Part shown: in pieces, positions 87 through 57,172 of the stretch
How the letters are laid out: every line of letters starts with the position of its first letter
Position numbering within the stretch: the first letter of the stretch is position 1
NCBI RefSeq assembly: GCF_009913235.1
Contig: NZ_CP047897.1
Coordinates: forward strand, 744,001-808,000
DNA: 64,000 bases
From: Nibribacter ruber
GTDB taxonomy: Bacteria; Bacteroidota; Bacteroidia; Cytophagales; Hymenobacteraceae
Direction: 5' to 3'
The notes under the pieces: model-generated
What the model was told of the DNA's origin: nothing
The model's database searches: none
What the model saw: only the letters and a program-made list of their open reading frames with translations
Translations under genes and position numbers: made by a program

Positions 87-124
87 AGTTTTTGGCTTAT
101 TTCCCAGAAAACAACCCGAAAACG
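87..124. repeat. Dispersed 38-bp palindrome, copy 1
   Basis: Arms GTTTTTGGCTTATTTCC and GAAAACAACCCGAAAACG, with several arm mismatches. It lies between a possible gene end at 67 and the stop of the OmpA-family gene at 147. Confidence 0.8.
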
Positions 125-146
125 ATCAGTGGCAAACCGAGGGAAC

Positions 147-2069
147 CTATAAAATCCGCAGCTCGATCCGTCTGTTCAATTGGCGGTTTTGATCAGAGGT
201 GTTGGGGACGGTGGGTTGGGTTTCGCCGTAGCCTTTGGCCAGGAATGTAGAAGCCGGAATTCCTTTGGAAACCAGATAGTGCACCACTTCTTGGGCGCGG
301 GCTTGCGATAGTTTGAGGTTGGAGGCGGGTTGGCCTACATTATCTGTGTGACCGGCTATTTCTACTTTTAGGCCGGGGTTGCTTTTCATGAACTGGAATA
401 GCTTGTCCAACTCCGTGCGGGATTCTTTGCGGAGAGTGGCTTTTCCGGTGTCAAAAAACAAATTACTTAGAATAGCTTTCTTTCCTTTTCCTATAGGCTG
501 CAAATAAAAATCCAGGGCCAAAGGTTGGGCGGTGCTGACGGCAGATAAATGTCGGCTTTCCAAGACATAACCGGGGGCAGTCACATAGAGGGCATATTGT
601 TGGCCTTGGTTGACCACTATGGTATAAGCGCCGGTTTGCTTGTCAGAAGGAACTTGTTGGGCAACTACTCCTAGTGAATCCAAGTCATACACCTGCACTT
701 GCGCGGCAATTGGCTTCTTGGTTACGGCGTCATACACTGTTCCCTGCGCGAAGCTACTGGTCATATTCCCCTTCCAAACAGCGGGCACCTCAAACTGCGA
801 AAGGCCTATGAGCACTTGACCTGGTTGGGCAGGTTGCCCAGAATAATAACCGAGTTGGTTGTCTGCGGTGATGAAAAGGGAAGTCTCATCGCGGTGTGTA
901 TTCAGGGGGTAGCCCAAATTGACAGGTTCTGCCCATCCGTGCGCCTGCCTGGTAGCCTTGAAAAGGTCCAACCCTCCCATGCCCAGCCGGCCATCTGTGG
1001 CAAAGTACAGAGTGGCACCACTGGCATGCAGGAAAGGAGCGGCTTCGCGGCCAGAAGAATTGATGGCACTGCCAGCGTTGACCGGAACCTCCCAGGAACC
1101 GTCTTCTTGCTGCCGGGTCACCCAAATGTCTTCATTCCCCAAGCCTCCTTTGCGATTAGAGGCAAAATAAATGGTTCGTCCGTCCGCAGAGAGACTTGGC
1201 TGAGAGTCCCAGGAAGAAGTATTGACGTTTCGGCCCATATTCACCGGCTTGGACCAATTCTCGCCTTCCTTATAAGAGATGTACAAATCGCAGCTGCCAA
1301 AGGAGTCCTGACGGTTGCAGGAGGTGAACACCAACACGCGGCCATCAGCTGAAAAGGTGGCAGCTCCTTCGTTTAAGTCTGTGTTGATTTGATCCGAGAC
1401 GGAGACTGGCGCCTGCCACTGTCCTTCTTTTTTCACAGACAGGTACAGGTCTTCATCGTCTAACGCACCCCTACCCGACCTTGCCGTAAATAATAACTCT
1501 TGTTGATTGGCCGTGAGAACTGGAGAATACTGCATGCCCATAGCATTTACCACGGGGCTAAGTGGCACCGGCGAATAGGCAACCGGGTGGGCCATGGCCT
1601 CTTGCGCAAAGGCTACGTTCTTAAGCTGACGCTCTGCGTGAACCGCCTGCTTGGCTCCTGCCTTGGCATACCCCAGGTATTTCTGGTAATATTCTGCGGA
1701 CTGGCCATAGTGGCCCCGCTCAAAAGATAAGTCAGCGAAGGCAAGGTAATCTGGCGCCAGACTGGCCTGGGCCGGGACTTTGGACAAACCGCGAAGGTAG
1801 TATTGGTAGGCGGCATCTGGCTTTTGCAGGATGCGGCTCAATCCAGCGGCGCGTAAATACGCTTCGCCCAGGAGAGAGTCACGGGAGATGGCCTCGTCAA
1901 ACGCTTCTATGGCTTTTTCAAAATTGCGCATCTGAATGAGTTTCAGGCCTTCCTGGTACTGCTTTTGGGCTTTGGCATTGGAGGAGCCACCTGCTTTTTG
2001 GGCCCAACCACAAAGGCTATTCCCAATTACCAAACCAACAATAAGTACCAGAACCTGAAATGCGCGCAT
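147..2069 (-). CDS. OmpA-family outer-membrane protein with TPR and PD40 repeats
   Basis: A 640-residue protein that probably links the outer membrane to peptidoglycan. Residues 1-23 form a signal peptide ending near CGWAQ. Residues 30-150 resemble TPR repeats. Residues 175-410 hold several WD40-like PD40 blades with motifs such as SADGR and YFASNRKGG. A carboxypeptidase-regulatory-like beta domain follows near 440-525. The C-terminal 110 residues are a classic OmpA domain starting at FFDTGKATL, with the peptidoglycan-binding GHTDNVG segment and RRIEL near the end. This architecture is common in Bacteroidota, where PorE or SprF-linked relatives serve type IX secretion and gliding. The gene starts 7 bases after queE, so the two are probably co-transcribed. 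The family is clear; the exact partner is unknown. Confidence 0.93.
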   Translation of the reverse strand: MRAFQVLVLIVGLVIGNSLCGWAQKAGGSSNAKAQKQYQEGLKLIQMRNFEKAIEAFDEAISRDSLLGEAYLRAAGLSRILQKPDAAYQYYLRGLSKVPAQASLAPDYLAFADLSFERGHYGQSAEYYQKYLGYAKAGAKQAVHAERQLKNVAFAQEAMAHPVAYSPVPLSPVVNAMGMQYSPVLTANQQELLFTARSGRGALDDEDLYLSVKKEGQWQAPVSVSDQINTDLNEGAATFSADGRVLVFTSCNRQDSFGSCDLYISYKEGENWSKPVNMGRNVNTSSWDSQPSLSADGRTIYFASNRKGGLGNEDIWVTRQQEDGSWEVPVNAGSAINSSGREAAPFLHASGATLYFATDGRLGMGGLDLFKATRQAHGWAEPVNLGYPLNTHRDETSLFITADNQLGYYSGQPAQPGQVLIGLSQFEVPAVWKGNMTSSFAQGTVYDAVTKKPIAAQVQVYDLDSLGVVAQQVPSDKQTGAYTIVVNQGQQYALYVTAPGYVLESRHLSAVSTAQPLALDFYLQPIGKGKKAILSNLFFDTGKATLRKESRTELDKLFQFMKSNPGLKVEIAGHTDNVGQPASNLKLSQARAQEVVHYLVSKGIPASTFLAKGYGETQPTVPNTSDQNRQLNRRIELRIL

Positions 2070-2076
2070 GAGGCTA

Positions 2077-2730
2077 TTACGGAATGTTCAAAAATTTATG
2101 CGTTTGCAGAGAGACTCTCCATTTTGGGTTCTCCTTCACATAGTTAACAATCATTGGCATGATCTGGTCTGCCTTGCTCCATTCTGGTTGCAGGTACAGG
2201 CGCGTTTCCGGTCCCACGTGAGCGGCATGCTCCTCTGCCCAGGCAAAATCTGATTTATTGAAAACGATCACCTTCAACTCACCGGCATGCGGCAACACAT
2301 TCGGGTGCGGCCCTTTGAATTTCTTAGGCGAAAGACAAATCCAGTCCCAGGTGCCACTCAAAGGATAGGCACCCGACGTTTCAATAAAGGTCTGCACGCC
2401 GCGTTTCTGCAATTCTGAGGTTAAGTAGTCCAGGTTATATAACAAAGGCTCGCCGCCAGTCACTACCACGGCCTTTCCCGGAAATTGAATGGCTTGCTGC
2501 ACAATCCAGTCGGTATCAGTGAGCGGGTGCAGATTGGCGTCCCAGGATTCTTTCACGTCGCACCAGTGGCACCCAATGTCACAACCACCCAACCTGATAA
2601 AGTAGGCGGCTTTGCCGGTATGGTAGCCTTCGCCCTGAATGGTATAAAAATGCTCCATAAGCGGCAGCTTGGTGCCATCTTTGGGAACGGTATGAATAGA
2701 GGCGGTTTTAACTTCTAAGATGTCTTCCAA
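2077..2730 (-). CDS. queE: 7-carboxy-7-deazaguanine synthase QueE
   Basis: A radical SAM enzyme that converts 6-carboxy-tetrahydropterin to 7-carboxy-7-deazaguanine in queuosine biosynthesis. At 217 residues it has the usual QueE length. The FYTIQGEG motif near residue 28 precedes the cluster-binding cysteines C50, C54 and C57 (CDIGCHWC, a CX3CX2C pattern). VTGGEP is the SAM-binding glycine motif, and LSPKKFKGP and LQPEW are QueE-typical. It is first of a likely two-gene unit with the OmpA-family gene downstream. A copy of the dispersed palindrome lies 20 bp upstream of the start. No other queuosine gene is in the window. Confidence 0.95.
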   Translation of the reverse strand: MEDILEVKTASIHTVPKDGTKLPLMEHFYTIQGEGYHTGKAAYFIRLGGCDIGCHWCDVKESWDANLHPLTDTDWIVQQAIQFPGKAVVVTGGEPLLYNLDYLTSELQKRGVQTFIETSGAYPLSGTWDWICLSPKKFKGPHPNVLPHAGELKVIVFNKSDFAWAEEHAAHVGPETRLYLQPEWSKADQIMPMIVNYVKENPKWRVSLQTHKFLNIP

Positions 2731-2750
2731 AACGGTCTGGTAAAAGATTC

Positions 2751-2788
2751 TGTTTTTAGCCTTATTTCTAGAAAACGAGCCAAAAACG
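2751..2788. repeat. Dispersed 38-bp palindrome, copy 2
   Basis: Left arm GTTTTTAGCCTTATTTC, right arm GAAAACGAGCCAAAAACG. It lies between the folD terminator and the queE start, 20 bp upstream of queE, so it would fall in or near the queE leader. Confidence 0.85.
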
Positions 2789-2864
2789 AAACTGGTTGTA
2801 TAAGGGTAACAATTTGCACTGGCCGGTTAGTGCCCAAGGTGTACCCCGTAATTTATAAAAAGAA

Positions 2865-2897
2865 CAGCAGCCATTTCTGAGACAGGAATGGCTGCTG
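2865..2897 (-). terminator. Terminator of folD
   Basis: On the minus strand a stem GCAGCCATT / AATGGCTGC (one mismatched position) is followed by TGTTCTTTTTATAA. It lies 50-85 bp after the folD stop. Confidence 0.75.
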
Positions 2898-2949
2898 CAA
2901 AGGTACAAAATAGAATATTTCCGGGCTCGGCTAATTTTCTTCTTCGGTC

Positions 2950-3938: not shown

Positions 3939-3976
3939 CGTTTTTGGCCTGTTTTCTGGAAAACAAGCCAAAAACG
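3939..3976. repeat. Dispersed 38-bp palindrome, copy 3
   Basis: Near-perfect copy with TG at the centre. Pairing extends outward by AGT/ACT to 3936-3979. It lies 30 bp after the stop of the MFS efflux gene and may serve as its 3' hairpin. Confidence 0.92.
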
Positions 3977-8758: not shown

Positions 8759-8796
8759 CGTTTTTGGGCTATTTTCCAGAAAACAAGCCAAAAACG
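8759..8796. repeat. Dispersed 38-bp palindrome, copy 4
   Basis: Arms CGTTTTTGGGCTATTTTC and GAAAACAAGCCAAAAACG with CA centre. It lies in the divergent region between tetR and the carbonic anhydrase gene, so it is not a terminator of either. Confidence 0.9.
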
Positions 8797-9784: not shown

Positions 9785-9822
9785 CGTTTTTGGGCTATTT
9801 TCCTGAAAAGTGACCAAAAACG
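9785..9822. repeat. Dispersed 38-bp palindrome, copy 5
   Basis: Left arm CGTTTTTGGGCTATTTTC, right arm GAAAAGTGACCAAAAACG. It lies between two convergent genes, about 20 bp from the lepA terminator hairpin. Confidence 0.88.
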
Positions 9823-13461: not shown

Positions 13462-13499
13462 CGTTTTTATCCTCTTTTCCAGAAAACACGCCAAAAACG
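13462..13499. repeat. Dispersed 38-bp palindrome, copy 6
   Basis: Right arm GAAAACACGCCAAAAACG is well kept; left arm CGTTTTTATCCTCTTTTC has drifted. Confidence 0.85.
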
Positions 13500-18283: not shown

Positions 18284-19366
18284 TTACTCCGCGTATAATT
18301 CTAACTGAGACATGGCGGTGGCGGGCTCCACAAACTTGGTATAGATCTTTTGGTTTTCCCTAACCAGGCGCAGGCCTTCCAGCAGAATCTTGTCATCCTT
18401 GCTTAGTCCCTTTGATACCACGTAAATGTGCGGCAGCTCTGAGGCAACGGTAATCTCTCTGGACTTCACCTCATTGTTTTTGTCCAACACGTAGACATAC
18501 TTTTTATCCAGCACCTCAAATGTGGCTTTCTGCGGAATAAGCAAGGCATTGCGCATGGGTACTTCCATCAAAACTTTACCGGTCTCGCCATGGCGTAACA
18601 AGCCATTAGGGTTAGGAAAAGTGGCTCTGAAGGCAATGTTCCCAGTTTCATTGTTGAAATCTGCCTCAATGGTCTTTACCTCGCCGGGGTATTCAAACAC
18701 CTGCTGGTTGGCCATCTGCAGCTTCACTTTTTGCATGTTGCTGCTTTTGTTGGTGGTTTTATAGTCCAGGTACTCAGACTCAGGTACGTTAAAGTACACC
18801 CACATCTGGCTGTTGTCAGAAAGAGTGGTGAGCAACTCGCCTTCGTCTACTAAGCTTCCCAGCCTTACTTCCAGATGGTCCATGAGGCCGTCAAAAGGAG
18901 CTTTGATTTGGGTAAAGCCTAAATGCACTTTCGCTAGTGACACGTCTGCCTGGGCCTTGCTGAGCTTGGCTTTGGCCATAGCCAGTTCATTAGGAGACAC
19001 AATGTTGCTGGATGCCAGCTTCTTGGTGTTCAGGTATTCAATGTTGGCAAAGCTGGCCTCTGCTTGGGCTTTCTGGAGTTCTGCCTGGTACATGGCCGGC
19101 ATGATCTGGAACATGAGCTGTCCCTTTCTAACCTTCTGCCCCTCGTCTACAAACATTTTCTGCAGATAGCCTTTTTCCAGCGCCCGCACCTCTATGTGGC
19201 TGATGGCGTGGATTTGGCTCACGTACTCCTTGGTGATCAAGGTGTCTTTTACCAGTGGGCTGGTTACCTGAAACTCGGTAGCCTCGTGTTTTTCTTCCTT
19301 CTTTGATTCACAACCAGTATGACCCAACAGGGCACAAAAGGCTATGAGCATGAAATTTCGCTTCAT
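18284..19366 (-). CDS. RND periplasmic adaptor lipoprotein
   Basis: A 360-residue membrane-fusion protein, first in the RND operon, 25 bp before the pump gene. Signal peptide and lipobox LLGHTGC end at C19, so it is probably anchored to the inner membrane by lipid. The biotinyl-lipoyl-like halves (VRALEKGYLQKMFVDEGQ and IKAPFDGLMDHLEVRLGS) flank an alpha-helical hairpin of about residues 85-145. A beta-barrel and membrane-proximal domain follow. Confidence 0.93.
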   Translation of the reverse strand: MKRNFMLIAFCALLGHTGCESKKEEKHEATEFQVTSPLVKDTLITKEYVSQIHAISHIEVRALEKGYLQKMFVDEGQKVRKGQLMFQIMPAMYQAELQKAQAEASFANIEYLNTKKLASSNIVSPNELAMAKAKLSKAQADVSLAKVHLGFTQIKAPFDGLMDHLEVRLGSLVDEGELLTTLSDNSQMWVYFNVPESEYLDYKTTNKSSNMQKVKLQMANQQVFEYPGEVKTIEADFNNETGNIAFRATFPNPNGLLRHGETGKVLMEVPMRNALLIPQKATFEVLDKKYVYVLDKNNEVKSREITVASELPHIYVVSKGLSKDDKILLEGLRLVRENQKIYTKFVEPATAMSQLELYAE

Positions 19367-19669
19367 GATAGATATGGATTATTAAAAAAAAATGGATGTG
19401 ATGACAATGGGTGTAGGATGGCTACAATGCGCCCGCCAGCCGCCAGCATGCGGTGGGAAATGGGCAATTAAAAATGGGCATACCTAGTTGGAAAGACTGC
19501 TTTCCAGACTTTAACTGTCTGTCCCCTCAACCGGAGGGCCAACCAAGAATAAGCCGAATGAATTAACTAATAGAAAGCATGCCTTTACTTTCCAGTGGGC
19601 AGAAACCACCAGAAACCAATGAAAATAGGCAGGCAATTAGGCAATGAAGTTGCCTAGGCGAAATGAAAA
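19367..19669. other. Intergenic region upstream of the RND operon
   Basis: A 303-bp gap that should hold the RND operon promoter. I see no operator palindrome, no adjacent regulator, no copy of the dispersed repeat, and no supported small gene. Confidence 0.5.
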
Positions 19670-20098
19670 TCAGATTCGGAGAACCCGGAAGAGGAGATAC
19701 CTCCGGTGAAAAGAGAAATTAGCGAACTGGCTGGTGAAGCGGCAGCGCTGAATAATAGACCAAAAAATGTGCGCAAAGGTCCCGGCGAATAAAATAGCCG
19801 TAAGGAAGTCACTCCCACCTTTGTCATATTTGAAACTTCCGGCTTGGTCTTCTTCTAGCTCGGTTACCGTTTCTGAGGTGGCAATTAGGTCAGCTGCCTG
19901 CTCAAAGGTTGGTAAGGAGTAGGAAAGAGTATAAACTGGATCTTGCAGTACCTCCCTGAATTGGGCCAGAGCAGCCAGCTGAGAGGTATGCGAAGGATAA
20001 AAGGCCTCTTGTTGCTTTACCTGTGCCAGCAATTGGGTATTGCCGCCCAGCAGGAAAATGCACAGAGATAAGAGTAATGTAGTGAACGCCTTTATCAT
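19670..20098 (-). CDS. Small secreted or membrane protein of unknown function
   Basis: A 142-residue protein with a good signal peptide (residues 1-25, cleavage near LLAQ). The middle is hydrophilic and acidic. A single hydrophobic stretch at about 99-113 (FLTAILFAGTFAHIF) is followed by a basic, aromatic tail ending YLLFRVLRI. I do not recognise the family. A competing frame starts at 20189 but lacks a signal peptide. It stands alone between the RND operon and the TRIC-like channel gene. Confidence 0.55.
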   Translation of the reverse strand: MIKAFTTLLLSLCIFLLGGNTQLLAQVKQQEAFYPSHTSQLAALAQFREVLQDPVYTLSYSLPTFEQAADLIATSETVTELEEDQAGSFKYDKGGSDFLTAILFAGTFAHIFWSIIQRCRFTSQFANFSFHRRYLLFRVLRI

Positions 20099-20321
20099 TC
20101 TGCCCCAAAATTAGGTCGGGATGGTGAGATAGGCAAGACATCCTCGTTAAATAATAATTTCCTGACCTATTGAGTCTTCCAAAAGTCAAATCTACAAAGG
20201 CCGCTAGTATCTCCCTTCCACAACCGTTTCTGGATTAAAACCTTACCTTATCGTTGCAAGAGGTGATTTTTGGGTCAAGTGATTCTGCGTAGAATTGGGA
20301 ATAGAATTACGGGCACGCAAG

Positions 20322-20969
20322 TTAATTCAAATTAGGAAAGGACCATTTCAGCTTCACGGCCAACACTCGTATAGTGATGATGATGCTCACGGCCACCAGG
20401 ATGGGCAGGTCGCCGGACATGGGAGCTAGGCGCATAATGAGAAAAACCAGTCCGCCGGCCAGGCATGCAGTGGCGTAAATTTCTCTTCTGAAGATCAAGG
20501 GAATATCATTGCAGAGAATATCGCGCACCACCCCGCCAAACACCGCCGACACCACCCCCATGACCAGGGCTATGGTGGGCGGTACTCCCATTCTAAGGGC
20601 TTTTTCAATTCCCAACACGGTAAACATGGCAATGCCCACGCTGTCAAAGAGAAACATGGTCTTGCGGTACTTCTCCACCTTGCTCCTGAACAACAGCGTC
20701 ACCACCACAGATACAAACACTGTAATCAGCAACTTCTCATCCTGCACCCACACTGGCTTCACGTCCAGCAGCACATCGCGCAGGGTTCCTCCGCCTAAGG
20801 CTGTCACAAAGGCAATCACTGAAGCCCCAAACGGGTCCAGTTTTTTTGAAGCCGCCGTGAGCGTGCCACTGATGGCAAACACAAACGTCCCCAGAATGTC
20901 AATGGCCGGAATCAGCGCTGATACGGGAATTTCTGTGATGGGAATATCTGTGAGAGGAAGCTGAGGCAT
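20322..20969 (-). CDS. TRIC/UPF0126-family membrane channel protein
   Basis: A polytopic inner-membrane protein of about 215 residues with seven hydrophobic segments in two similar halves. The repeated glycine-rich signatures GGGTLRDVLLD and GGVVRDILCND define the trimeric intracellular cation channel (YadS/UPF0126) family. The frame opens to 21071. However, those first 34 codons run through palindrome copy 7, so I take MPQLPLTDIP at 20969 as the start. It probably passes monovalent cations; the cellular role in bacteria is poorly known. Confidence 0.9.
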   Translation of the reverse strand: MPQLPLTDIPITEIPVSALIPAIDILGTFVFAISGTLTAASKKLDPFGASVIAFVTALGGGTLRDVLLDVKPVWVQDEKLLITVFVSVVVTLLFRSKVEKYRKTMFLFDSVGIAMFTVLGIEKALRMGVPPTIALVMGVVSAVFGGVVRDILCNDIPLIFRREIYATACLAGGLVFLIMRLAPMSGDLPILVAVSIIITIRVLAVKLKWSFPNLN

Positions 20970-21038
20970 GGGTTTGATAATTTGACGGTAAGCTACGCAA
21001 AACGGTGTAAAAGGAAAGAAGCACCCCTGAACGAATGC

Positions 21039-21076
21039 CGTTTTTGGCCTGTTTTCCAGAAAAGAAGCCAAAAACG
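21039..21076. repeat. Dispersed 38-bp palindrome, copy 7
   Basis: Near-consensus copy: CGTTTTTGGCCTGTTTTC, CA, GAAAAGAAGCCAAAAACG. It lies between divergent genes, 80 bp before the icmF start. Confidence 0.92.
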
Positions 21077-21122
21077 ACTATAGAGAGTTAGGGCCCTTCC
21101 CTGCAATCTATTTGAAAATTCG

Positions 21123-21130
21123 TACTTTCG
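21123..21130 (+). promoter_or_regulatory. Possible -7 box for icmF
   Basis: TACTTTCG matches TAnnTTTG at seven of eight bases, 28 bp before the ATG. No clear -33 element. Confidence 0.35.
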
Positions 21131-21157
21131 CGATAACGTACACTAGCAACCTAACAA

Positions 21158-24100
21158 ATGTCAGTTTCTGCTGTTCAGCCGTATAAACCGGTCAACCATA
21201 TTAGAATTGTCACCGCTGCGGCACTTTTTGACGGCCATGACGCCGCCATCAACATCATGCGCCGCATTATTCAGTCCTCGGGCGCCGAGGTGATTCACCT
21301 GGGTCACAACCGCTCCGTGCAGGAGATTGTGGACTGCGCCATTCAGGAAGACGCCCAAGCCATTGCCATCACCAGTTACCAAGGTGGTCACCTGGAGTAC
21401 TTCAAATACATGTATGACCTGCTCAACGAGCGCGGAAGCGGCCATGTGCGCATCTTTGGCGGCGGTGGCGGGGTGATTCTGCCCACTGAGATTGAAGAAC
21501 TGCACGGCTACGGCATTGCCCGCATTTACTCACCAGACGATGGACGCGCGATGGGCTTGCAGGGCATGATTAATGACATGCTTGAGAAATGCGACTTCCC
21601 GACGGGTCAAAATCTAAACGGCGAAGTAAAGCACCTAAAAGACAAAGACGCTAAATCCATTGCCCGTTTAATTTCTGCCGCCGAGAACTTCCCTGAGGAG
21701 TTTGCCAAGGTAAAAGAGCAGTTGTTGGCGGGTGTTGAACAACAGAAAGCCAATAAAGAACTAGCTACGCCTGTGCTGGGTATTACTGGAACTGGTGGAG
21801 CTGGTAAGTCCTCATTGGTTGATGAGTTGGTGCGCCGTTTCCTAGCCGACTTCCCAGATAAAAACATTGCCATCATCTCAGTAGACCCATCTAAGCGCAA
21901 AACTGGTGGTGCTTTATTAGGTGATAGAATACGCATGAACGCCATCAGCAACAGCCGCGTCTACATGCGTTCTTTGGCTACGCGCCAAAGCAATTTGGCT
22001 TTAAGTAAGTACGTGCAGGATGCCGTAGACGTGGTAAAAGCCGCTCAGTTTGATTTGATTATCTTGGAAACCTCGGGCATTGGCCAGTCAGATACCGAGA
22101 TTATTGAGCATTCCAACGCCAGCTTGTACGTGATGACCCCAGAATACGGAGCCGCCACGCAGCTGGAGAAGATTGACATGCTGGACTTCGCAGACATCAT
22201 TGCGCTTAACAAGTTTGACAAGCGAGGGGCTTTGGACGCCATCCGGGACGTGAAGAAACAATACAAGCGCAACCACCAGCTTTGGGATGTGAACGATGAC
22301 GACATTCCGGTGTTCGGGACCATCGCTTCGCAATTCAACGACCCAGGCATGAACCGTCTGTACAAAGCGGTGATTGCTAAAATTACGGAGAAAACCGGGG
22401 TGGCCTTTGCCTCTAATCTGCAAGCCACTGGGGAGATGTCAGAGAAAGTCTACATCATCCCTCCTGCCCGCACGCGCTACCTTTCTGAGATTTCTGAGAA
22501 CAACCGCGCCTATGACAAGTGGGTGCAGGAACAAGCCAGCGTAGCGCAGAAACTTTACGGCATTCGTCAGTCCATTGAGGCTATTCAAGCTATTGAGGTA
22601 GAAGATAAAGACCGCCTGATTAAGGGCTTAGAGTATGCCTTTGAAGAAACTGCTTTAAGACTGGACGGCCAGAATAAGAAGCTGTTAGAGCAGTGGCCAG
22701 AGAAACGCCAGAGCTATAAAAACGAGTTCTACGAGTTCAAGGTGCGCGACAAAGTCCTGAAGGTAAAGACGCACACGACCAGCCTTTCCCAATTAGAGAT
22801 TCCTAAAGTGGCCACGCCGCGCTATGAGGCTTGGGGCGATTTGCTGAAATGGAATCTGCAGGAGAACGTACCGGGTGAATTCCCTTACACCGCGGGCGTG
22901 TTCCCTTTCAAGCGTGAAGGCGAAGACCCAACCCGAATGTTTGCCGGCGAAGGTGGACCTGAACGCACCAACCGTCGTTTCCACTACGTGAGTAAAGGTT
23001 TGCCAGCCAAGCGTTTATCTACCGCCTTTGACTCCGTTACTTTATATGGCGAGGACCCAGATCTGCGCCCGGATATTTACGGTAAGATTGGTAACTCAGG
23101 GGTAAGTATTGCCTGTCTGGATGATGCCAAGAAACTGTATTCGGGCTTCAACCTGGCTGACCCGATGACCTCGGTGTCCATGACCATCAATGGTCCGGCC
23201 GCTATGCTGACGGGCTTCTTCATGAACGCCGCCATTGATCAGCAGTGCGAACTCTACATTAAAGAGAACGGATTGGAATCTGAGGTGAATAGCCGAATTG
23301 AGGCTATTTTCCAGAAAACAGGCCAAAAACGCCCTACCTACCAAGGCGGGTTACCAGACGGCAACGATGGCTTAGGCTTAATGCTCTTAGGGGTAACCGG
23401 TGACCAGGTATTGCCAGCCGAAGTATATAATCAAATCAAGGAGCGCACCTTGACTTCAGTACGAGGAACGGTGCAGGCTGATATCTTGAAAGAAGACCAG
23501 GCGCAGAACACCTGTATCTTCTCCACTGAGTTCGCCTTGCGTTTGATGGGCGACGTTCAGCAGTACTTCATTGACCACAACGTTCGCAACTTCTACTCGG
23601 TGTCTATCTCTGGCTACCACATCGCTGAGGCGGGCGCCAACCCTATCTCGCAGCTAGCCTTCACGCTGGCCAACGGCTTTACGTTTGTGGAGTACTACGT
23701 GAGCCGTGGCATGGACATCAACGCCTTTGCACCTAACCTGAGCTTCTTCTTCTCCAACGGCATTGACCCAGAGTATGCGGTGATTGGTCGCGTGGCCAGA
23801 AGAATATGGGCGAAGGCTATGAAACTAAAGTACGGCGCCAACGCCCGTTCGCAGATGTTGAAGTACCATATCCAGACTTCGGGACGTTCTTTGCATGCAC
23901 AGGAGATTGACTTCAATGACATCAGGACCACCTTGCAGGCGCTGTACGCGATTTACGACAACTGTAACTCGTTGCACACAAACGCTTATGATGAGGCCAT
24001 CACTACCCCAACTGAAGCATCAGTGCGTAGAGCCATGGCCATTCAGTTGATCATTAACCGTGAGTTGGGTCTGGCTAAAAACGAGAACCCATTGCAAGGC

Positions 24101-24685: not shown

Positions 24686-24723
24686 CGTTTTTAGCTTGTT
24701 TTCTGGAAAATAAGCTAAAAACG
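24686..24723. repeat. Dispersed 38-bp palindrome, copy 9
   Basis: Arms CGTTTTTAGCTTGTTTTC and GAAAATAAGCTAAAAACG with TG centre. The usual G-C pair at arm position 8 is A-T on both sides, so pairing is preserved by a compensatory change. Confidence 0.92.
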
Positions 24724-28564: not shown

Positions 28565-28602
28565 CGTTTTTGGCTTGTTTTCCAGAAAACAGGCCAAAAA
28601 CG
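28565..28602. repeat. Dispersed 38-bp palindrome, copy 10
   Basis: Almost perfect copy, pairing extended outward by GT/AC to 28563-28604, starting 5 bp after the kup stop codon and 7 bp before a terminator hairpin. Confidence 0.93.
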
Positions 28603-28608: not shown

Positions 28609-28648
28609 GAGAAAGGCCCCGGAAGAATTTCTTCCGGGGCCTTTCTCT
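28609..28648. terminator. Bidirectional terminator between kup and the M61 peptidase
   Basis: Long stem GAAAGGCCCCGGAAGAA with its exact inverse around a short T-rich loop, then TCTTTTT. It stands between convergent genes. Confidence 0.92.
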
Positions 28649-31214: not shown

Positions 31215-31852
31215 CTGAGACGAGTTGGATTAATAGCGTAGCCCTGACTTCTGACCTATGTGACTGTGTTTGATTTCAGGTGCGCGTGTCGTTTTTGCGG
31301 TATTTTCGCTAAAACAGCCAAAAAACGGCCTATGGAAAGGACCATCTTATGGATGAAAGCCATTACGGCTGAGTGTTCCATAAAAAGGCAAAGTAAGGTT
31401 TAGTAAAGGTCATCCTCAAGGCGAAGAAGCGCCCCGATCGATCTGCCCCACCCCAAAGTTTCTTACCGCATATGCTTAAGACACCTTTATCTTGTAGCCT
31501 TTACGCGATGAGAAGCAATAATTATACGCACCTTTGTGCTGGTTCACAATTACAGGTATTTGTACCGCTAAGACCTTGTACTAATTTCTTTTAATTTAAT
31601 TCACCCCTGTTGAGTAAATCCCAATTGGTCACCTCCTGCAAAAACAGCTACCAAGATATAAGCCATGTCAAGGGGGCAAACAGACGTTTTAACTTAGTCT
31701 TATATCGTTGTTGTCATGGTAGGCTGGTTTTTACCGTAAATTGGATTGTTAAACCCGGCGAAAAGAAACCAACCATATCAAAAGTACTGTTTAAAATTTT
31801 TAAGCATGGAAGACAAAAGCACAATCCGGATTTTTGTGGATGCAGTCCCTAG
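31215..31852. other. Gene-poor region
   Basis: Holds palindrome copy 11 at its left end. Several short frames exist (for example 31610-31852), but none has a signal peptide, a recognisable motif or a clear initiation region. With the segment to its right it may be decayed sequence. Confidence 0.5.
31290..31327. repeat. Dispersed 38-bp palindrome, copy 11
   Basis: Diverged copy: CGTTTTTGCGGTATTTTC on the left, AAAACAGCCAAAAAACG on the right. It lies 75 bp after the NlpC/P60 gene. Confidence 0.8.
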
Positions 31853-32742: not shown

Positions 32743-32780
32743 CGTTTTTGGCTTATTTCCCCGAAAACAAGCTAAAAACG
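32743..32780. repeat. Dispersed 38-bp palindrome, copy 12
   Basis: Arms CGTTTTTGGCTTATTTCC and GAAAACAAGCTAAAAACG. It lies 145 bp after the truncated haemoglobin gene. Confidence 0.9.
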
Positions 32781-34741: not shown

Positions 34742-34779
34742 CGTTTTTGGTCTGTTTTCCGGAAAATGGGCCAAAAACG
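34742..34779. repeat. Dispersed 38-bp palindrome, copy 13
   Basis: Arms CGTTTTTGGTCTGTTTTC and GAAAATGGGCCAAAAACG with CG centre. It lies between the M1 peptidase end and the GreA-like start. Confidence 0.9.
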
Positions 34780-36845: not shown

Positions 36846-36905
36846 AAGGTACCCTAATAAGTATCTGAAAAACTAAGGTACTGAACCTACAGCATATATA
36901 AACAA

Positions 36906-36933
36906 ACAAAGCCCGGCAATTGCCGGGCTTTGT
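36906..36933 (-). terminator. Terminator of the T9SS protein gene
   Basis: Perfect 28-bp palindrome, ACAAAGCCCGGCAA and its inverse, followed on the minus strand by TTGTTTGTTT. Confidence 0.9.
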
Positions 36934-36950
36934 CATGTCTTGCTTACAAA

Positions 36951-38273
36951 TTATTGCACTACAATTCTTTCTGAGCGCACGTTCTTTCCAGAGAGAATTT
37001 GCAAGATGTACACGCCCTTGCCAAACCTGCTAAGGTCCAGGTCTCTGGTGAAGGTGCCTTTCTGCAGACCTGCGTTCTCTTCCAATACAGTTTTGCCAGT
37101 GCTGTCTACCACGCGCAAACGCGTATCAGACTTCTTGTCTATGGTAAACGAAACCGTGAATCGGCCGCTGGTAGGATTAGGATACAGGCGTACTTCCATT
37201 TCTTTGCCTGCCTTTGCCTCCTTGCTGCCGGTTGCTTGTATGCCTTTCTTGCCAATGGTAGTGGGAGAAGACCTCAGAACGATAATCTGCCTCGTTTCAC
37301 CTTTCGCGGGAACCGCCAGCCGAAAATTAGCCACGTCTCCAAGCTTACCATTTTCTCTGATTCTAACCACTTTGATACCACTTGCAGAATCCTTTTCTAT
37401 AAAAATGGATCTGTTGGCAAACAGGGAATCAATTCTTATCCGGAACATGCTGTCTGGTACGCCTAGTAGTTTACTTGGTGCTAAGGAATCTCCATTAAGT
37501 GATTTGCGCAGGTAAAAGGTGTGTCCTAGCAGCGGGTTGTCTTTCTCGTCAAGGCTCGTCACCCACCTTCTTCCCTCCTGGCCAGAAACTGTAATTTTGC
37601 CGTTTACAATTTTAAAGGATGAGTCTGAAGAAATGGACTGAATGGTAATGGCTTTTACAGTGTTCTTACCTTCTTTAGAAAAGATACGGGTGGCAGTCAA
37701 TCCATCTCCAACGGTGAACTCAGACGTCTCCAGAGGTTTGGCTCCCAACGCGGTCATGGAACGCTCATCCAGTTTTAAACCTTTCATCGCCGTCATCTGA
37801 GAAACGCCCGCCGGCACCACCAACGTGGTGTCCAAAGCATAAAAGGTGTCATTTTCCTTTTTTATGATTCTTAATTTAACCGTCCGCTCTTTGGTTGAAT
37901 CCTCAAGGGTTCTTAGCAACTGATGCCTAGCACCCTCCTGCCCTTCCAAGCCCGTGAAGGTTCGGGCAAATCCTCGTATTCGCAGCGTGTCAGAGCCCGC
38001 TTTAGAAGGCCTCAGGAATAAGATGTCCTTTCCATTATGCTGCTGTCTTACCATGTACAGTAGTTGCTGGTGTTTGGCCAATTGCGCTTCTGTTAGCTGA
38101 ACTAGGGTGTCTACTTCCACTAGTTGCCCGTTCTGATCTTTAAACACATGGAATGTGGTCTTTTCCTGGGCCAGCGCCTTTTTCTTCTTCTGGGCCACGG
38201 CCTTGGAGCTGGTAAACCCGCCTAGGGCCACCAGGGTTAGAAAGACCGCGGCATAATTTGATTTCAGTTTCAT
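36951..38273 (-). CDS. Secreted protein with type A T9SS sorting domain
   Basis: A 440-residue exported protein. The frame opens at 38315, but MKLKSNYAAVFLTLVALGG at 38273 gives a clean signal peptide ending near KAVAQ. The body (residues 30-350) is a Ser/Thr/Lys-rich beta-type region that matches no family I know. The tail from VRLYPNPTSGRFTVSF to RSERIVVQ is a type A sorting domain. It is divergent from a two-component system, with five GTTAA boxes between them, so it may be a direct target of that regulator. Confidence 0.88.
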   Translation of the reverse strand: MKLKSNYAAVFLTLVALGGFTSSKAVAQKKKKALAQEKTTFHVFKDQNGQLVEVDTLVQLTEAQLAKHQQLLYMVRQQHNGKDILFLRPSKAGSDTLRIRGFARTFTGLEGQEGARHQLLRTLEDSTKERTVKLRIIKKENDTFYALDTTLVVPAGVSQMTAMKGLKLDERSMTALGAKPLETSEFTVGDGLTATRIFSKEGKNTVKAITIQSISSDSSFKIVNGKITVSGQEGRRWVTSLDEKDNPLLGHTFYLRKSLNGDSLAPSKLLGVPDSMFRIRIDSLFANRSIFIEKDSASGIKVVRIRENGKLGDVANFRLAVPAKGETRQIIVLRSSPTTIGKKGIQATGSKEAKAGKEMEVRLYPNPTSGRFTVSFTIDKKSDTRLRVVDSTGKTVLEENAGLQKGTFTRDLDLSRFGKGVYILQILSGKNVRSERIVVQ

Positions 38274-38330
38274 ATCTAGGTATATTAGAGGTGGGTATGT
38301 AGTTGATGGACACAATATTACCGCGCCGCT

Positions 38331-38379
38331 GTTAAGAAATGGGTTAAGGCTCTGTTAAAGTCTGTTAAGGAAAAGTTAA
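38331..38379. promoter_or_regulatory. Array of five GTTAA boxes
   Basis: GTTAA starts at 38331, 38343, 38354, 38364 and 38375, a spacing of 12, 11, 10 and 11 bases. Three boxes extend to CTGTTAA. One helical turn between boxes fits tandem binding of an OmpR-type response regulator. The array lies upstream of the kinase promoter and also upstream of the divergent T9SS gene. Confidence 0.75.
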
Positions 38380-38381
38380 TG

Positions 38382-38414
38382 TTGAGAAAAGCCTTGAGAT
38401 AGCGCCTATCTTTG
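38382..38414 (+). promoter_or_regulatory. Promoter of the two-component operon
   Basis: TTG at 38382-38384 and TATCTTTG at 38407-38414 with a 22-base spacer fit the Bacteroidota -33/-7 pattern. The -7 box ends 5 bases before the ATG, so the transcript may be leaderless or nearly so. Confidence 0.65.
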
Positions 38415-38419
38415 TAGAG

Positions 38420-41376: not shown

Positions 41377-41414
41377 CGTTTTTTGCCTATTTTCTGGATT
41401 ATAGGGCAAAAACG
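41377..41414. repeat. Dispersed 38-bp palindrome, copy 14
   Basis: Diverged copy 11 bp after the response-regulator stop. Its right half contains the last codons and stop of the oxidase-III-like gene on the minus strand. Confidence 0.8.
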
Positions 41415-43690: not shown

Positions 43691-43728
43691 CGTTTTTGGC
43701 CTGTTTTCCCGGAAATAGGCCAAAAACG
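43691..43728. repeat. Dispersed 38-bp palindrome, copy 15
   Basis: CGTTTTTGGCCTGTTTTC, CC, GGAAATAGGCCAAAAACG. It lies between convergent genes, 6 bp before the stop of the minus-strand gene, and may act as a shared terminator. Confidence 0.93.
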
Positions 43729-45025: not shown

Positions 45026-45427
45026 TTGTGGGGGGGGAAATGGGTTGGAAATCAAGGGGCAGGGCACGCCCACCTTCGTAAAGGTAACCATTTCAAGTCA
45101 ATAGCAAAGGACGATGGCAAAGGAGAAACAATCGGGTTAAATTGATTCATTTGGATGCCGTAAACCAGGATATCACGTCGCTCCTTCTTATTTTTTGAAA
45201 TCGTTTTTGGCATGTTTTACAGGAAATAACCCAAAAACGAAGTTCCCCATTGCCAACCATCGCCTGTACTCTTGCGCTTCCTGGGGCGCTTAACTAGTTC
45301 CATTCTCCAGGCCACGCTCCCTTCTTCGGCCCAACCAGACGATGCATTGTTCGTTAAGTTTAAGACGAGCTCCTTCTACCGTGGAAGGATGCCAACCGAA
45401 AAGACAGCACGTTTAAACACATAGCGT
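45026..45427. other. Divergent intergenic region
   Basis: About 400 bp between the RsbQ-like hydrolase and SDR gene starts. It holds palindrome copy 16. Promoters for both genes must lie here, but I see no clear TAnnTTTG box and no operator. Confidence 0.5.
45202..45239. repeat. Dispersed 38-bp palindrome, copy 16
   Basis: CGTTTTTGGCATGTTTTA, CA, GGAAATAACCCAAAAACG. It lies in a divergent region, so a terminator role for neighbouring genes is unlikely. Confidence 0.9.
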
Positions 45428-46155: not shown

Positions 46156-46223
46156 ATTAAATAAGAATGCCGTTTTTGGCCTGTTTTACAGAGAACAGGC
46201 CAAAAACGGCATTCTTATTTAAT
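46156..46223. terminator. 68-bp palindrome: bidirectional terminator with repeat core
   Basis: Outer arms ATTAAATAAGAATGC and the exact inverse flank the 38-bp repeat with the same centre. Convergent genes end on both sides, and the A- and T-rich outer arms suit termination in both directions. Confidence 0.85.
46171..46208. repeat. Dispersed 38-bp palindrome, copy 17
   Basis: CGTTTTTGGCCTGTTTTA then GAGAACAGGCCAAAAACG. It forms the exact centre of a 68-bp palindrome. Confidence 0.95.
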
Positions 46224-50183: not shown

Positions 50184-50221
50184 CGTTTTTGGTCAGTTTT
50201 CATGAAAATAGCCTTAAAAAG
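50184..50221. repeat. Dispersed palindrome, copy 18 (degenerate)
   Basis: CGTTTTTGGTCAGTTTTC on the left, GAAAATAGCCTTAAAAAG on the right. It lies 4 bp after the ligA stop. Confidence 0.7.
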
Positions 50222-50845: not shown

Positions 50846-50883
50846 CGTTTTTGGCTTATTATTCAGGAATTAAGCCAAAAACA
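50846..50883. repeat. Dispersed 38-bp palindrome, copy 19
   Basis: CGTTTTTGGCTTATTATT and AATTAAGCCAAAAACA. It lies immediately beside a terminator-like stem. Confidence 0.85.
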
Positions 50884-50913: not shown

Positions 50914-50997
50914 CATTTACTAAACAAAAAACGAAACCTGGTAAAACATTCTACTTCAAGAACAGACAGCCATTCTAATTGTTTACACCTTTCCACT

Positions 50998-51035
50998 GTT
51001 TTTGGCTTAGATTACTTAGAAATACCCCAAAAACG
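50998..51035. repeat. Dispersed palindrome, copy 20 (degenerate)
   Basis: GTTTTTGGCTTAGATTAC on the left, AGAAATACCCCAAAAACG on the right; one base longer than consensus on the left. Confidence 0.75.
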
Positions 51036-51267: not shown

Positions 51268-51305
51268 TGTTTTAAGGCTAATTCTAGAAAAAGAGGCCAA
51301 AAACG
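51268..51305. repeat. Dispersed palindrome, copy 21 (degenerate)
   Basis: The right arm GAAAAAGAGGCCAAAAACG is well kept and ends directly at the permease stop; the left arm is decayed. Confidence 0.6.
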
Positions 51306-53183: not shown

Positions 53184-53224
53184 TTTCCTGGCGTTTCCTG
53201 CTTTTAAGCAACAGCTTTTCTGTA

Positions 53225-53260
53225 GTTTTAGCCTTATTCCAGAAAAACAATGCAAAAACG
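53225..53260 (+). repeat. Dispersed palindrome, copy 22 (degenerate), overlapping a start codon
   Basis: GTTTTAGCCTTATTCCAG then AAAAACAATGCAAAAACG. The right arm contains the kinase ATG, so codons 1-4 (MQKR) come from the repeat. TAGTTTTA at 53223-53230 may be the kinase -7 box. Confidence 0.6.
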
Positions 53261-54290: not shown

Positions 54291-54308
54291 TCTATTGTAT
54301 CTTGCCCT

Positions 54309-55046: not shown

Positions 55047-55104
55047 GCTTCCTCAGCCTCAGAATTTAGCACTAGGGTCCTTTAAATCGGTAAGGGCAAA
55101 TTTG

Positions 55105-55112
55105 TATCTTTG
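55105..55112 (+). promoter_or_regulatory. -7 box for dapA
   Basis: TATCTTTG, an exact TAnnTTTG match, 31 bp before the chosen ATG. It overlaps the upstream alternative start of the frame, which supports the later start. Confidence 0.55.
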
Positions 55113-55143
55113 GACTAGATACTTTCTATTTAAACACAAACGC

Positions 55144-56022: not shown

Positions 56023-56050
56023 TCTGACTTCTTAAGTTAGATCTCACCTA

Positions 56051-56087
56051 CGTTTTTGGCCTGTTTTCTAGAAAATACCCCAAAACG
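56051..56087. repeat. Dispersed palindrome, copy 23
   Basis: CGTTTTTGGCCTGTTTTC, TA, GAAAATACCCCAAAACG; one base short in the right arm. Followed by GGAGGCTTTTTTTT, so it may take part in termination after dapA. Confidence 0.88.
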
Positions 56088-56135
56088 GAGGCTTTTTTTT
56101 GAACCCATACTAACCAAAAACCTGGCACCTGCCCT

Positions 56136-57092
56136 ATGAAAGCAAGAATCTTCCTGACGTTATTGGCGTTCCTGTGCCTCCATCAGGCCTGGTCGCAATC
56201 CGGAACTACCCCGCAAGGCACTCCTATGGATTTGGTAACCTCCACCGGTACCATCAAAGGAACCCTCCTGCTGCCAACTTCCTCTAAACCGGTAAAGGTG
56301 GTATTACTGCATGCCGGCTCTGGCCCCACTGACCGCGACGGCAACATTGGGCCTTACCAGAACAACAGCCTGAAGATGCTCGCCGAAGCCCTGTACGCCC
56401 AAGGCATTGCCACCGTTCGGTATGACAAGCGCGGCATTGGGGAAAGCAAGGACGCCGGAAAGAAGGAAGAAGACATGCGCTTTCACCACTTCGTGGAGGA
56501 TGCGACTGCCTGGGTACAAAAATTGAAGGCAGACAAGCGATTCTCTAAGGTGGTGGTGTTGGGTCACAGTGAAGGTTCCTTGATTGGCATGCAGGCGGCT
56601 CAGCAGGCAAAAGCAGACGGATTCATTTCTGTGGCCGGCCCCGGGAAATCTGCCGACCAGGTAATTAGAGAGCAGCTGATGCCACAGCCTAAAATGGTGC
56701 AGGACATCGCCTTTCCCATTCTGGATTCCCTGGTAGCGGGCAAATTGGTGCCAGACGCCAACCCCATGCTGCAAGCCCTCTTTCGGCCCGCCATTCAACC
56801 ATATCTCATCTCTTGGTTCCAATTAAATCCGCAGGTTGAAATCAGGAAACTGAAAATACCGGTGCTGCTTGTACAGGGCACGCAGGACATGCAAGTATCT
56901 ACGGCAGAGGCCCAACTCTTGAAAGAAGCGTACCCTGCCGCTAAACTGGTGCTGGTAGAAAACATGAACCACGTGTTAAAACCAGCATCGGCAGACAAAG
57001 CCGCCAACCTTGCCACTTACAGCAACCCAGAACTTGCCTTGTCACCCACGCTAGCCCAGGAAGTGACCGCCTTTGTGAAGGGACTCAAATAA
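56136..57092 (+). CDS. Secreted alpha/beta hydrolase
   Basis: A 318-residue exported hydrolase of the serine aminopeptidase S33/dienelactone-hydrolase-like group. Signal peptide residues 1-20 (ending QAWSQ). LLHAGSGPTDRDGN forms the oxyanion region, GHSEGSLIG is the nucleophile elbow with catalytic Ser, QGTQDMQV carries the acid, and MNHVLK the His. The N-terminal MDLVTSTGTIKGTLLLP is usual for this family. The substrate is unknown. It stands alone and is followed by a perfect 64-bp palindrome. Confidence 0.9.
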   Translation: MKARIFLTLLAFLCLHQAWSQSGTTPQGTPMDLVTSTGTIKGTLLLPTSSKPVKVVLLHAGSGPTDRDGNIGPYQNNSLKMLAEALYAQGIATVRYDKRGIGESKDAGKKEEDMRFHHFVEDATAWVQKLKADKRFSKVVVLGHSEGSLIGMQAAQQAKADGFISVAGPGKSADQVIREQLMPQPKMVQDIAFPILDSLVAGKLVPDANPMLQALFRPAIQPYLISWFQLNPQVEIRKLKIPVLLVQGTQDMQVSTAEAQLLKEAYPAAKLVLVENMNHVLKPASADKAANLATYSNPELALSPTLAQEVTAFVKGLK

Positions 57093-57108
57093 ACTCGTTC
57101 AGTAAATA

Positions 57109-57172
57109 AACAAACCAGCTCCGTTTTTGGCTTATTTCCTGAGAAATAGGCCAAAAACGGAGCTGGTTTGTT
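57109..57172. terminator. 64-bp palindrome: bidirectional terminator with repeat core
   Basis: Outer arms AACAAACCAGCT and exact inverse flank the 38-bp repeat with the same centre, between convergent gene ends. The A-rich entry and T-rich exit fit a terminator working both ways. Confidence 0.85.
57122..57159. repeat. Dispersed 38-bp palindrome, copy 24
   Basis: CGTTTTTGGCTTATTTCC then GAGAAATAGGCCAAAAACG. It is the centre of a 64-bp palindrome. Confidence 0.95.

Follow-up and report, generated by a model that had tools for sequence, protein, structure and literature searches.

The nearest working analogue of the palindromes described here appears to be the dialects of uptake sequences in Neisseriaceae and Pasteurellaceae. 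According to the available text of PMC3630211, the DUS of Neisseriaceae form species-conserved dialects with thousands of copies per genome, vary widely in copy number among relatives, occupy permissive intergenic places and include inverted pairs tied to terminators, all as observed here. In Simonsiella and Kingella, overlapping DUS pairs are arranged as dyads, for which dimer-based recognition was suggested (PMC3630211). DUS are, however, short and also common inside genes (PMC3630211), whereas the palindrome is a 40-bp unit with about 54 bits that requires both arms of its dyad and lies nearly exclusively between genes, and its hosts belong to a different phylum. The USS of Pasteurellaceae, in the available text of PMC1626085, resemble it in having two subclade-specific types, a very strong consensus, AT-rich segments beside the core and single sites that are long stable; gap analysis was used there to argue that USS are not insertions. 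They differ in having an asymmetric 9-bp core that does not require a dyad (PMC1626085).

High-copy palindromes in gaps are also typical of the REP/BIME elements and their RAYT transposases, and the CGTC-tagged REPs likewise seem to be without a dedicated transposase, as far as the available text of PMC6006769 and PMC3733652 goes. Similarly, the RepRanger survey of REPs (PMC12306157) describes intergenic palindromes, some near stop codons; the terms Rufibacter, Hymenobacter and Cytophag- were not found in its available main text.

The window, i.e. the whole 64-kb stretch of DNA analysed, was described in an earlier note as carrying 24 copies of a dispersed palindrome. Repeat finding recovered the family at the positions claimed, and the shared arm CGTTTTTGGCYTGTTTTC has 37 matches in the window at ≤ 3 mismatches, compared with 0.22 expected (100 shuffles, largest 2). 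Twenty copies are clear and lie in gaps, with 0–7 mismatches to the consensus as scored over 36 positions; three others are weak, and one is a look-alike within a gene (Table 1). The look-alike at 23294 (6 mismatches) encodes 14 residues, and the stretch is broadly conserved in the 12 of 16 genus genomes read, whatever their palindrome copy number. It was rejected as a family member because it is coding sequence that is kept irrespective of copy number. The deserts noted earlier contain few gaps. Among 31 window gaps of ≥ 60 bp, two lie in 13.6–21.0 kb (19366–19669 and 20098–20321, with no comparable relative), two in 34.8–41.3 kb (36845–36950 and 38273–38419, both also empty in the congener G012) and none after 57185.

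Table 1. Palindrome copies and look-alike in the window
Feature	Position	Remarks
Palindrome copy	87..124	5 mismatches; 22 nt past stop of - strand gene
Palindrome copy	2751..2788	4 mismatches; tandem gap; G012 copy at same place
Palindrome copy	3939..3976	0 mismatches to consensus; tandem gap
Palindrome copy	8759..8796	2 mismatches; divergent gap
Palindrome copy	9785..9822	5 mismatches; convergent gap; G012 same place; G014 own-dialect copy in gap
Palindrome copy	13462..13499	4 mismatches; convergent gap
Palindrome copy	21039..21076	1 mismatch; divergent gap; G012 same place; key dialect case
Look-alike, not a member	23294..23331	coding sequence in 1134-aa gene
Palindrome copy	24686..24723	3 mismatches; tandem gap; G012 same place; G014-dialect copy in gap
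Palindrome copy	28565..28602	0 mismatches; 5 nt past stop codon; canonical A-stem-T palindrome next, at 28610
Palindrome copy	31290..31327	7 mismatches; tandem gap
Palindrome copy	32743..32780	3 mismatches; tandem gap
Palindrome copy	34742..34779	2 mismatches; tandem gap; G012 same place
Palindrome copy	41377..41414	6 mismatches; convergent gap; covers last 16 nt of - strand gene; G012 same place
Palindrome copy	43691..43728	2 mismatches; convergent gap; not nested, G012 counterpart nested in longer stem
Palindrome copy	45202..45239	5 mismatches; divergent gap; G012 gap also occupied, position match not established
Palindrome copy	46171..46208	2 mismatches; apex of longer convergent stem; G012 outer stem differs, still paired
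Palindrome copy	50184..50221	7 mismatches; 3 nt past stop codon
Palindrome copy	50846..50883	7 mismatches; 3' edge overlapped by terminator-like palindrome from 50880
Weak copy	50997..51034	13 mismatches ungapped; aligns with one-base insertion
Weak copy	51268..51305	10 mismatches
Weak copy	53223..53260	10 mismatches
Palindrome copy	56051..56088	5 mismatches; 28 nt past stop codon
Palindrome copy	57122..57159	5 mismatches; apex of longer convergent stem

A search of the whole genome from which the window comes (G000, its genus being probably Rufibacter) revealed a large family of about 1,400 copies. Arm matches number 1425 + 1474, compared with 3 + 7 in the backward control, and at ≤ 3 mismatches to the consensus of the window 688 forward and 682 reverse palindromes are present (control 0). 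A dialect-tolerant pattern finds 1411 palindromes in this genome (control 0) and 91–1667 in each of the 16 genomes of the genus, all of which carry it (control 0); recognisable copy number thus spreads 18-fold among congeners. Among the genomes searched, the family is restricted to this one genus, the other 237 genomes of the order yielding one chance-level match, in a single genome.

The copies are dispersed, mostly intergenic and frequently close behind stop codons, as had been noted. Only 12 of the 161 placed copies lie within called genes, and 11 of these have ≥ 4 mismatches. The mean distance of the 80 tandem copies from the stop is 0.29 of the gap length, and 30 fall in the first tenth of the gap. 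Occupied gaps (≥ 60 bp) amount to 32/45 for convergent, 74/135 for tandem and 19/51 for divergent gaps, and density is 0.2–0.5 per kb in all 21 sampled stretches. Both the even density and the gap preference are in favour of a site for chromosome architecture or transcription insulation, at which a nucleoid or roadblock protein would be bound roughly every 2.5 kb at the borders of transcription units. The 18-fold copy-number spread, together with the change of dialect at many sites (see below), is hard to square with an essential role of this kind; we regard the architectural or insulator reading as possible but rather doubtful.

In its own species, the site has the 40-bp dyad consensus YCGTTTTTRGSYTVTTTTC-YR-GAAAABARSCYAAAAACGR, with an information content of 54 bits. 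Among the 149 copies whose gap context was assigned, T4, T5 and A33–A35 never vary, unlike positions 8, 10, 11 and 13, and the position-specific constraint is mirrored in the two arms. Mismatch counts in the arms are uncorrelated (rho 0.085, p = 0.27, n = 169), and double changes (14 vs 14.1 expected) as well as compensatory changes (8 vs 7.5 expected) occur at chance levels in the 40 orthologous sites that are not nested. The two arms are identical half-sites under largely independent constraint, and in this they differ from hairpin-constrained REP/BIME elements as described in the available text of PMC6006769 and PMC3733652. The centre is a flexible pyrimidine-purine (YR) step in 126 of 169 copies; with the spaced T tracts, it would suit bending, as an architectural site might require. 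Free arms at a score of ≥ 14 number 3 of 348, and 3 in a Markov control. Half-sites alone therefore occur at chance frequency, and the dyad is obligate.

These features suggest that the palindrome is probably a dispersed dyad site, recognised in double-stranded form by a putative sequence-specific protein of two-fold symmetry; the candidate reader would be dimeric or tetrameric. Some observations stand against this reading. In the low-copy genomes G001 and G002, the best-matching copies (52 and 49) show strong covariation at positions 6, 7 and 10, and in 240 copies the paired bases number 3549 of 4560, compared with 3509 expected (z = 2.4). This slight excess reveals a degree of structural constraint, mostly in the arm's outer half.

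The placement near stop codons would be expected of a structural RNA, either an intrinsic terminator or a 3' hairpin stabilising mRNA. At least 5 extra outer pairs are present in 21 of 172 copies (well under 1 expected), and in several such nested copies the outer arms have diverged between G000 and G012 yet retain pairing; in 18 nested orthologous copies, compensatory changes number 14, compared with 10.4 expected (P = 0.011). In convergent copies, G-U exceeds A-C (42 vs 22, p = 0.017) in the unoriented + strand reading, but less so when the copies are oriented by the nearest stop (39 vs 25, p = 0.10), and in the 88 tandem copies, read on the transcribed strand, the two are equal (87 vs 87). 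Moreover, compensation is lacking in the 40 non-nested orthologous copies, the order is T-stem-A with no U tract, separate canonical terminator-like palindromes adjoin some copies, and over a third of the divergent gaps are occupied. The earlier view that the palindromes are not simply terminators is borne out by this divergent occupancy and by the G-U/A-C equality in tandem copies. At gathering thresholds, Rfam gave 0 matches in the window. The palindrome is not mainly an RNA hairpin, compensatory change being found only in the nested minority, and a purely structural RNA role is very unlikely. A minority of copies also seem to have been built into what resemble intrinsic terminators, where they cap a stem specific to the host.

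The earlier note likened the family to REP/BIME elements and held that identical occupancy in all related species, without movement, would refute this. This is essentially what is seen between G000 and G012, which are 78% identical. Of their 88 syntenic gaps, 46 hold a copy in each genome, 40 in neither and 1 in each of the two alone (p = 9e-23); 86 gaps thus agree, and both discordant gaps are of changed length. Comparable gaps beyond G012 are few (11 with G014 and 6 with each of five others). Orthologous sites resemble each other more than random sites do (0.80 vs 0.72, 62 pairs). In 58 one-to-one orthologous pairs, identity between species is 97–100% at positions 4–6 and 15–16, and 62–71% at positions 8, 10, 11, 13, 14 and 18, compared with 73.6% in the flanks. 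In some gaps, copies that are spelled differently between species lie at equal distance to the same genes. For example, the gap at 21039 has clear copies of other dialects at 68/79 nt (G014) and 68/80 nt (G003) from the same two genes, a displaced copy in G006 (37/103), and in G007, G002 and G015 only degenerate sequence that aligns with it. Where species are comparable gene by gene, the palindromes mostly stay put while their spelling diverges.

A mobile family that is shifted and kept uniform by a RAYT (TnpA_REP) transposase, perhaps of the Bacteroidetes subclass 2.6, is at odds with the fixed gaps, and we consider this reading distinctly unlikely. The genome does contain three RAYT-like Y1 genes, none of them in the window (744001–808000), as the earlier note had stated. 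Their motifs NHLH, FWQ and Y(I/L)H(Q/H)NP resemble those of subclass 2.6, which the available text of PMC6006769 describes as flanked by atypical secondary structures, and one of the genes, L035, lies between two copies, at 38 nt on its upstream and 119 nt on its downstream side. Flanking of this kind, which the note had proposed to look for, is not general: 13 of the 31 Y1 genes read (of 45 matches in the genus) lack a copy within 300 nt on either side. Two-sided flanking is more frequent for Y1 genes (9/31) than for genes of the own genome generally (37/322, p = 0.011), but not than for genes with gaps of ≥ 60 bp on both sides (33/158, p = 0.35). In G012, with its 1125 copies, the Y1 searches gave no match, one of these searches being without a positive control. 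The GTAG (GTRG) foot is missing, both ends reading YCGTT.../...AACGR in column counts, although this does not exclude subclass 2.6 in view of its atypical structures (PMC6006769, available text). A CGTC tag outside the stem was not found either; the ends are CGTT, within the symmetric arm. The family thus differs from the REP/BIME elements of PMC6006769 and PMC3733652, as far as their available text goes, in having no GTAG or CGTC tag, no RAYT dependence and no movement between two congeners. Nevertheless, chance-level single arms and the sharp genus boundary suggest initial spread by copying. That half-built sites are missing is more readily understood if copying first gave rise to the units, a step that the dyad-site model lacks.

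A single round of copying in the genus ancestor might also have left elements that have since been neutral and decaying. The near absence of gain or loss between G000 and G012 is in keeping with this, as are the low-count G007, G004 and G005, whose degenerate copies have a similar density (one per 2.0–2.2 kb, 40–60 kb sampled each). Low-copy species have no sharp consensus, and such a dead burst fits them. It is already disfavoured in the sharp-dialect species G000, G012, G014 and G006 (24.7–27.9 bits per arm), because of this sharpness, the purifying pattern by position between species, and the uncorrelated arm mismatches, which are contrary to a shared age. As an account of the family it is highly improbable.

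For the dyad site read by a protein, selection or drive would keep the sites where they are, and the dialects would track shifts in the specificity of the reader. The single likeliest job, albeit a tentative one, may be that of a drive-maintained signature of self-DNA, by analogy with DNA uptake sequences, the architectural or insulator role being nearly as likely. Like DUS and USS, the sites number hundreds to thousands with species dialects, blurred in low-copy species, and they are fixed and changed by point mutation rather than insertion (G000/G012; few gaps with G014). Unlike them, abundant unpaired or in-gene sites were not found among the free arms and placed copies counted above. ComEC, the one competence gene searched, is present in 16/16 genus genomes and 10/14 control genomes; the uptake version gains no support from it, because low- and high-copy species have it alike.

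Ordinary selection on a regulator does not easily account for concerted change at many hundreds of immobile sites, and the only precedents known to us are the uptake-sequence dialects of two families of Proteobacteria. No earlier case in Bacteroidota of dialects in a sequence of the uptake or self-recognition type is known to us, and a literature search found none. The family could conceivably, though this is by no means assured, be a new genome-wide self-signature: an obligate dyad, limited to a genus, kept at homologous places with concerted dialects, served by a putative dimeric reader and secondarily taken into terminators. A high-copy intergenic palindrome is, at any rate, not necessarily a REP or a terminator. 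If true, the self-signature would be the first of its type with dialects in Bacteroidota and a third independent dialect case, in another phylum and with a dyad as its unit, and the congener series from sharp to blurred, in environmental bacteria with no known harmful effects, would make the start, dialect change and death of such signatures directly testable.

The arm of the palindrome matches the window 37 times, against 0.22 expected, and all 24 places listed in the earlier note were recovered. Twenty of them are clear copies in gaps between genes and three are weak; the remaining one, the site at 23294, is excluded from the family because it is coding sequence within a gene. In a 458-kb sample of the same genome (the window and 20 further stretches), 172 copies have nine or fewer mismatches in 36 positions, while a Markov control has none with eleven or fewer, and the density is 0.2–0.5 per kb in all 21 stretches. 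The exact palindrome in the dialect (the species-specific spelling) of the window was found in only two stretches of an 84,980-species collection, both from Rufibacter, with records of the own genome possibly left out of that collection; on this ground the genus is taken to be Rufibacter. Among plasmids and viral contigs, the consensus has no match at E 0.01, and a dialect-tolerant pattern, which accepts several spellings, has no exact match.

Coordinates of the features discussed (window positions unless otherwise indicated)
Feature	Position	Remark
Window	744001-808000	of the 4,352,178-base single-contig genome
Divergent gap	20969-21157	
1134-aa gene	21158-24562	L070-L073
Look-alike site	23294	within a gene
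Convergent gap, own genome	28565-28646	only the first palindrome
Nested copy	46171	
Locus L035	G000:C1:1737810-1741007	RAYT-like gene between two palindromes
First palindrome of L035	1325-1362 of L035	
Second palindrome of L035	2074-2111 of L035	

The unit is 40 bp long, consisting of the 38-mer flanked by a pyrimidine (133/149) and a purine (135/149), and carries 54 bits of information. Arm positions T4 and T5 are invariant in all 149 copies, while positions 8, 10, 11 and 13 are variable, and the alternatives at these positions are shared by both arms. The number of mismatches in one arm does not correlate with that in the other, and arms without a partner occur at chance level (3/348 at a score of at least 14, control 3; 7/357 at a score of 10, control 12). 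Bases are paired slightly more often than expected in 240 copies from 604 kb (3549 of 4560, 3509 expected), chiefly in the outer half of the arm. At the centre, 126 of 169 copies have a pyrimidine-purine step. CA exceeds TG by 33 to 18 along transcription in tandem gaps, and the ratio is 10 to 14 in convergent gaps; with these counts and no replichore trend as judged by eye, the centre was rejected as an orientation signal. In the divergent gaps of the own-genome sample, CA on the plus strand outnumbers TG by 15 to 3 (p = 0.0075), an imbalance for which no reason was found.

Placement was assessed with our own hexamer-based calls of 365 genes. Gaps of at least 60 bp are occupied in 32/45 convergent, 74/135 tandem and 19/51 divergent cases, and 12 copies lie inside called genes among the 161 that could be placed (the other 11 have no called gene on one side). 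Tandem copies cluster toward the upstream stop codon; among 34 convergent copies, 16 adjoin a stop and 12 are in mid-gap. A comparison of core against accessory gaps gave occupancies of 49/91, 18/36 and 4/11, which are small numbers. It was also observed that one convergent gap has, in several species, the order stop, palindrome, canonical terminator-like stem, palindrome and stop.

A general function as RNA terminator may be considered in view of the copies that form the apex of longer, host-specific stems. Five or more extra outer pairs are present in 21/172 copies, with well under 1 expected, and in several such nested copies (e.g. that at 46171) the outer arms differ in sequence in the congener G012 with pairing kept. 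Selection for an RNA hairpin would be expected to make G-U mismatches more acceptable than A-C ones on the strand that is transcribed. The two are equal in 88 tandem copies (87 each). In 40 convergent copies, in which either strand may be transcribed, G-U exceeds A-C on the plus strand (42 vs 22, p = 0.017), and less so when the copies are oriented by the nearest stop (39 vs 25, p = 0.10); these counts leave room for an RNA effect in convergent copies. Compensatory double changes between orthologous sites are in excess in the 18 pairs with outer pairing of at least 4 (14 vs 10.4 expected, P = 0.011). No such excess is seen in the remaining 40 pairs (8 vs 7.5, P = 0.48). From the G-U/A-C and compensatory-change counts, the general constraint is on DNA, as two half-sites, and an RNA constraint is added in the nested minority. 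The terminator is therefore rejected as the general function and retained for that minority.

The positions of the palindromes are conserved between the own genome and G012, whose aligned DNA is 78% identical. For every one of the 63 own sites that have aligned bases, G012 carries a site at the same place. The 23294 look-alike is among the 63, and at least twice a pair of own sites shares a single G012 counterpart; after filtering, 58 one-to-one orthologous pairs remain. Because this count needs alignment through the site and holds these double mappings, gaps of 60–900 bp were also compared by their flanking genes, provided that either gene end had an anchor no more than 150 nt away. This comparison covered 88 syntenic gaps: both species have a site in 46 and neither has one in 40, and a single gap is occupied in each species alone (p = 9e-23); in both discordant gaps the gap length has changed. 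Orthologous sites resemble each other more than random pairs do (0.80 vs 0.72; 62 pairs), and are thus inherited and not replaced. Across the 58 pairs the constraint is position-specific and mirrored in both arms.

With the dialect-tolerant pattern, each of the 16 genomes of the genus yields between 91 and 1667 copies (control 0). De novo scans of syntenic regions give the spelling CGTTTTTGGCYTGTTTTC in both the own genome and G012, CGTTTTCGGGCTCATTTC in G014, CGTTTAGGGGCTGTTTTT in G003, and CGTTTTGGGCCTGTTTTC among the forms of G006. Dialect consensuses were built separately in sampled DNA, on sites from one mixed matrix (A2), so that very different spellings may be missed there. The tree is based on one gene, with support below 80 on six of 13 inner branches. 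Occupancy of comparable gaps (both, own only, other only, neither) is 7, 0, 1 and 3 against G014 (11 gaps, p = 0.024); for six gaps each, it is 3, 1, 0 and 2 against G006, 3, 0, 0 and 3 against G003, 4, 0, 0 and 2 against both G007 and G002, and 0, 3, 0 and 3 against G015. All 8 species have palindrome-like sequence at the aligned place in the divergent gap 20969-21157. It is clear in the own genome, G012, G014 and G003, and degenerate in G007, G002 and G015 (in the last below the scan threshold). The distances to the two genes are 68/80 in the own genome, 68/79 in G014 and 68/80 in G003, and are shifted to 37/103 in G006. The 1134-aa gene, which may be a fused acyl-CoA mutase, as a relative's adjacency to mutase-like sequence suggests, is matched by a pair of separate frames in G006 and G010 and by a single frame in each of the 14 other genomes.

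In sampled DNA of the low-count genomes G007, G004 and G005, degenerate copies occur once per 2.0–2.2 kb (scan specificity: none in 660 kb of Markov control, one in 360 kb of real DNA from other genera), and low counts thus reflect blurred more than missing copies. G015 is sparser, with one copy per 5.7 kb (40 kb). The best-matching copies of G001 and G002, both low in copy number, show covariation at positions 6, 7 and 10. The 16 survivors in G001 and G015, which are the best pattern matches given loci and not a random sample, have outer pairing of at least 3 bp in 9/16 cases, against 33/172 own copies (p = 0.002). Covariation and outer pairing make a structural reading of G001, G002 and G015 possible, and we infer that the sequence-specific force may have relaxed there, with terminators surviving. 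At 5 bp or more the difference is not significant (4/16 vs 21/172, p = 0.24), and as a class the survivors were not accepted as terminators. To judge by ComEC, which is present in all 16 genomes, loss of competence genes is unlikely to be the cause of the low copy numbers.

The boundary of the genus is sharp. A covariance model matches all 16 members (up to 55 candidates scored per genome) and 10/104 other genomes of the family, with 1–6 mostly weak matches each. Two matches in G096, of another genus, have a best E of 9e-11. Outside the genus the dialect-tolerant pattern has a single match, with three mismatches, in one of 237 genomes of the order, while the backward control matches in seven. 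In seven genomes from other genera of the family, de novo scans of 20–60 kb apiece revealed no comparable set of palindromes, except in G074. Three palindromes with related TTGCAAC-type cores occur there in 60 kb (L158-L160), two TTGCAAC..GTTGCAA and one ATGCAAT..TTGCAT; these are perhaps a different dispersed family.

The earlier note had likened the palindromes to REP elements, which would move by a RAYT-type (Y1) transposase. The own genome has three Y1 genes, with motifs near those of subclass 2.6 in PMC6006769. Y1 number does not track palindrome copy number across the genus, and G012 (1125 copies) has no Y1 match by Pfam or by a three-row profile, the latter search lacking a positive control. 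Of the 45 Y1 matches, 31 genes were read (start codons of L107 and L118 doubtful); a palindrome lies within 300 nt upstream in 11 of the 31, downstream in 16 and on both sides in 9. The corresponding shares among own-genome genes are 33%, 43% and 11%. Copies on both sides are thus in excess (p = 0.011), but no longer so when the reference is genes with gaps of at least 60 bp on both sides (33/158, p = 0.35). With Y1 flanks unexceptional, G012 without a match and gaps concordant, a RAYT-driven REP is rejected as a present force, and neither the transposase link nor the movement was borne out. The upstream palindrome of L035 is nested in a longer stem, AGCAAACCTC/GAGGTTTGCT, whose outer part comprises 10 bp or more.

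The closest working analogue is the uptake-sequence dialects, which share dialects and an association with terminators (PMC3630211, PMC1626085); the former paper also describes dyad pairs of uptake sequences in Simonsiella and Kingella. In contrast to uptake sequences, single sites are not in excess here, so that membership is not claimed and an uptake role would be an analogy. The family is undescribed in the covered literature, mostly outside subscription papers, on palindromes or repeats of Rufibacter, Hymenobacter and Hymenobacteraceae, on Bacteroidetes REPs and uptake sequences, and on genome-wide dyads.

Judging from sequence, a double-stranded site read by a dimer would account for most of the observations, origin aside. 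As for the origin, half-built sites are lacking and the genus boundary is sharp, which suggests that whole units were initially dispersed by copying at the root of the genus. The sites would afterwards have stayed put while the dialect changed in place.
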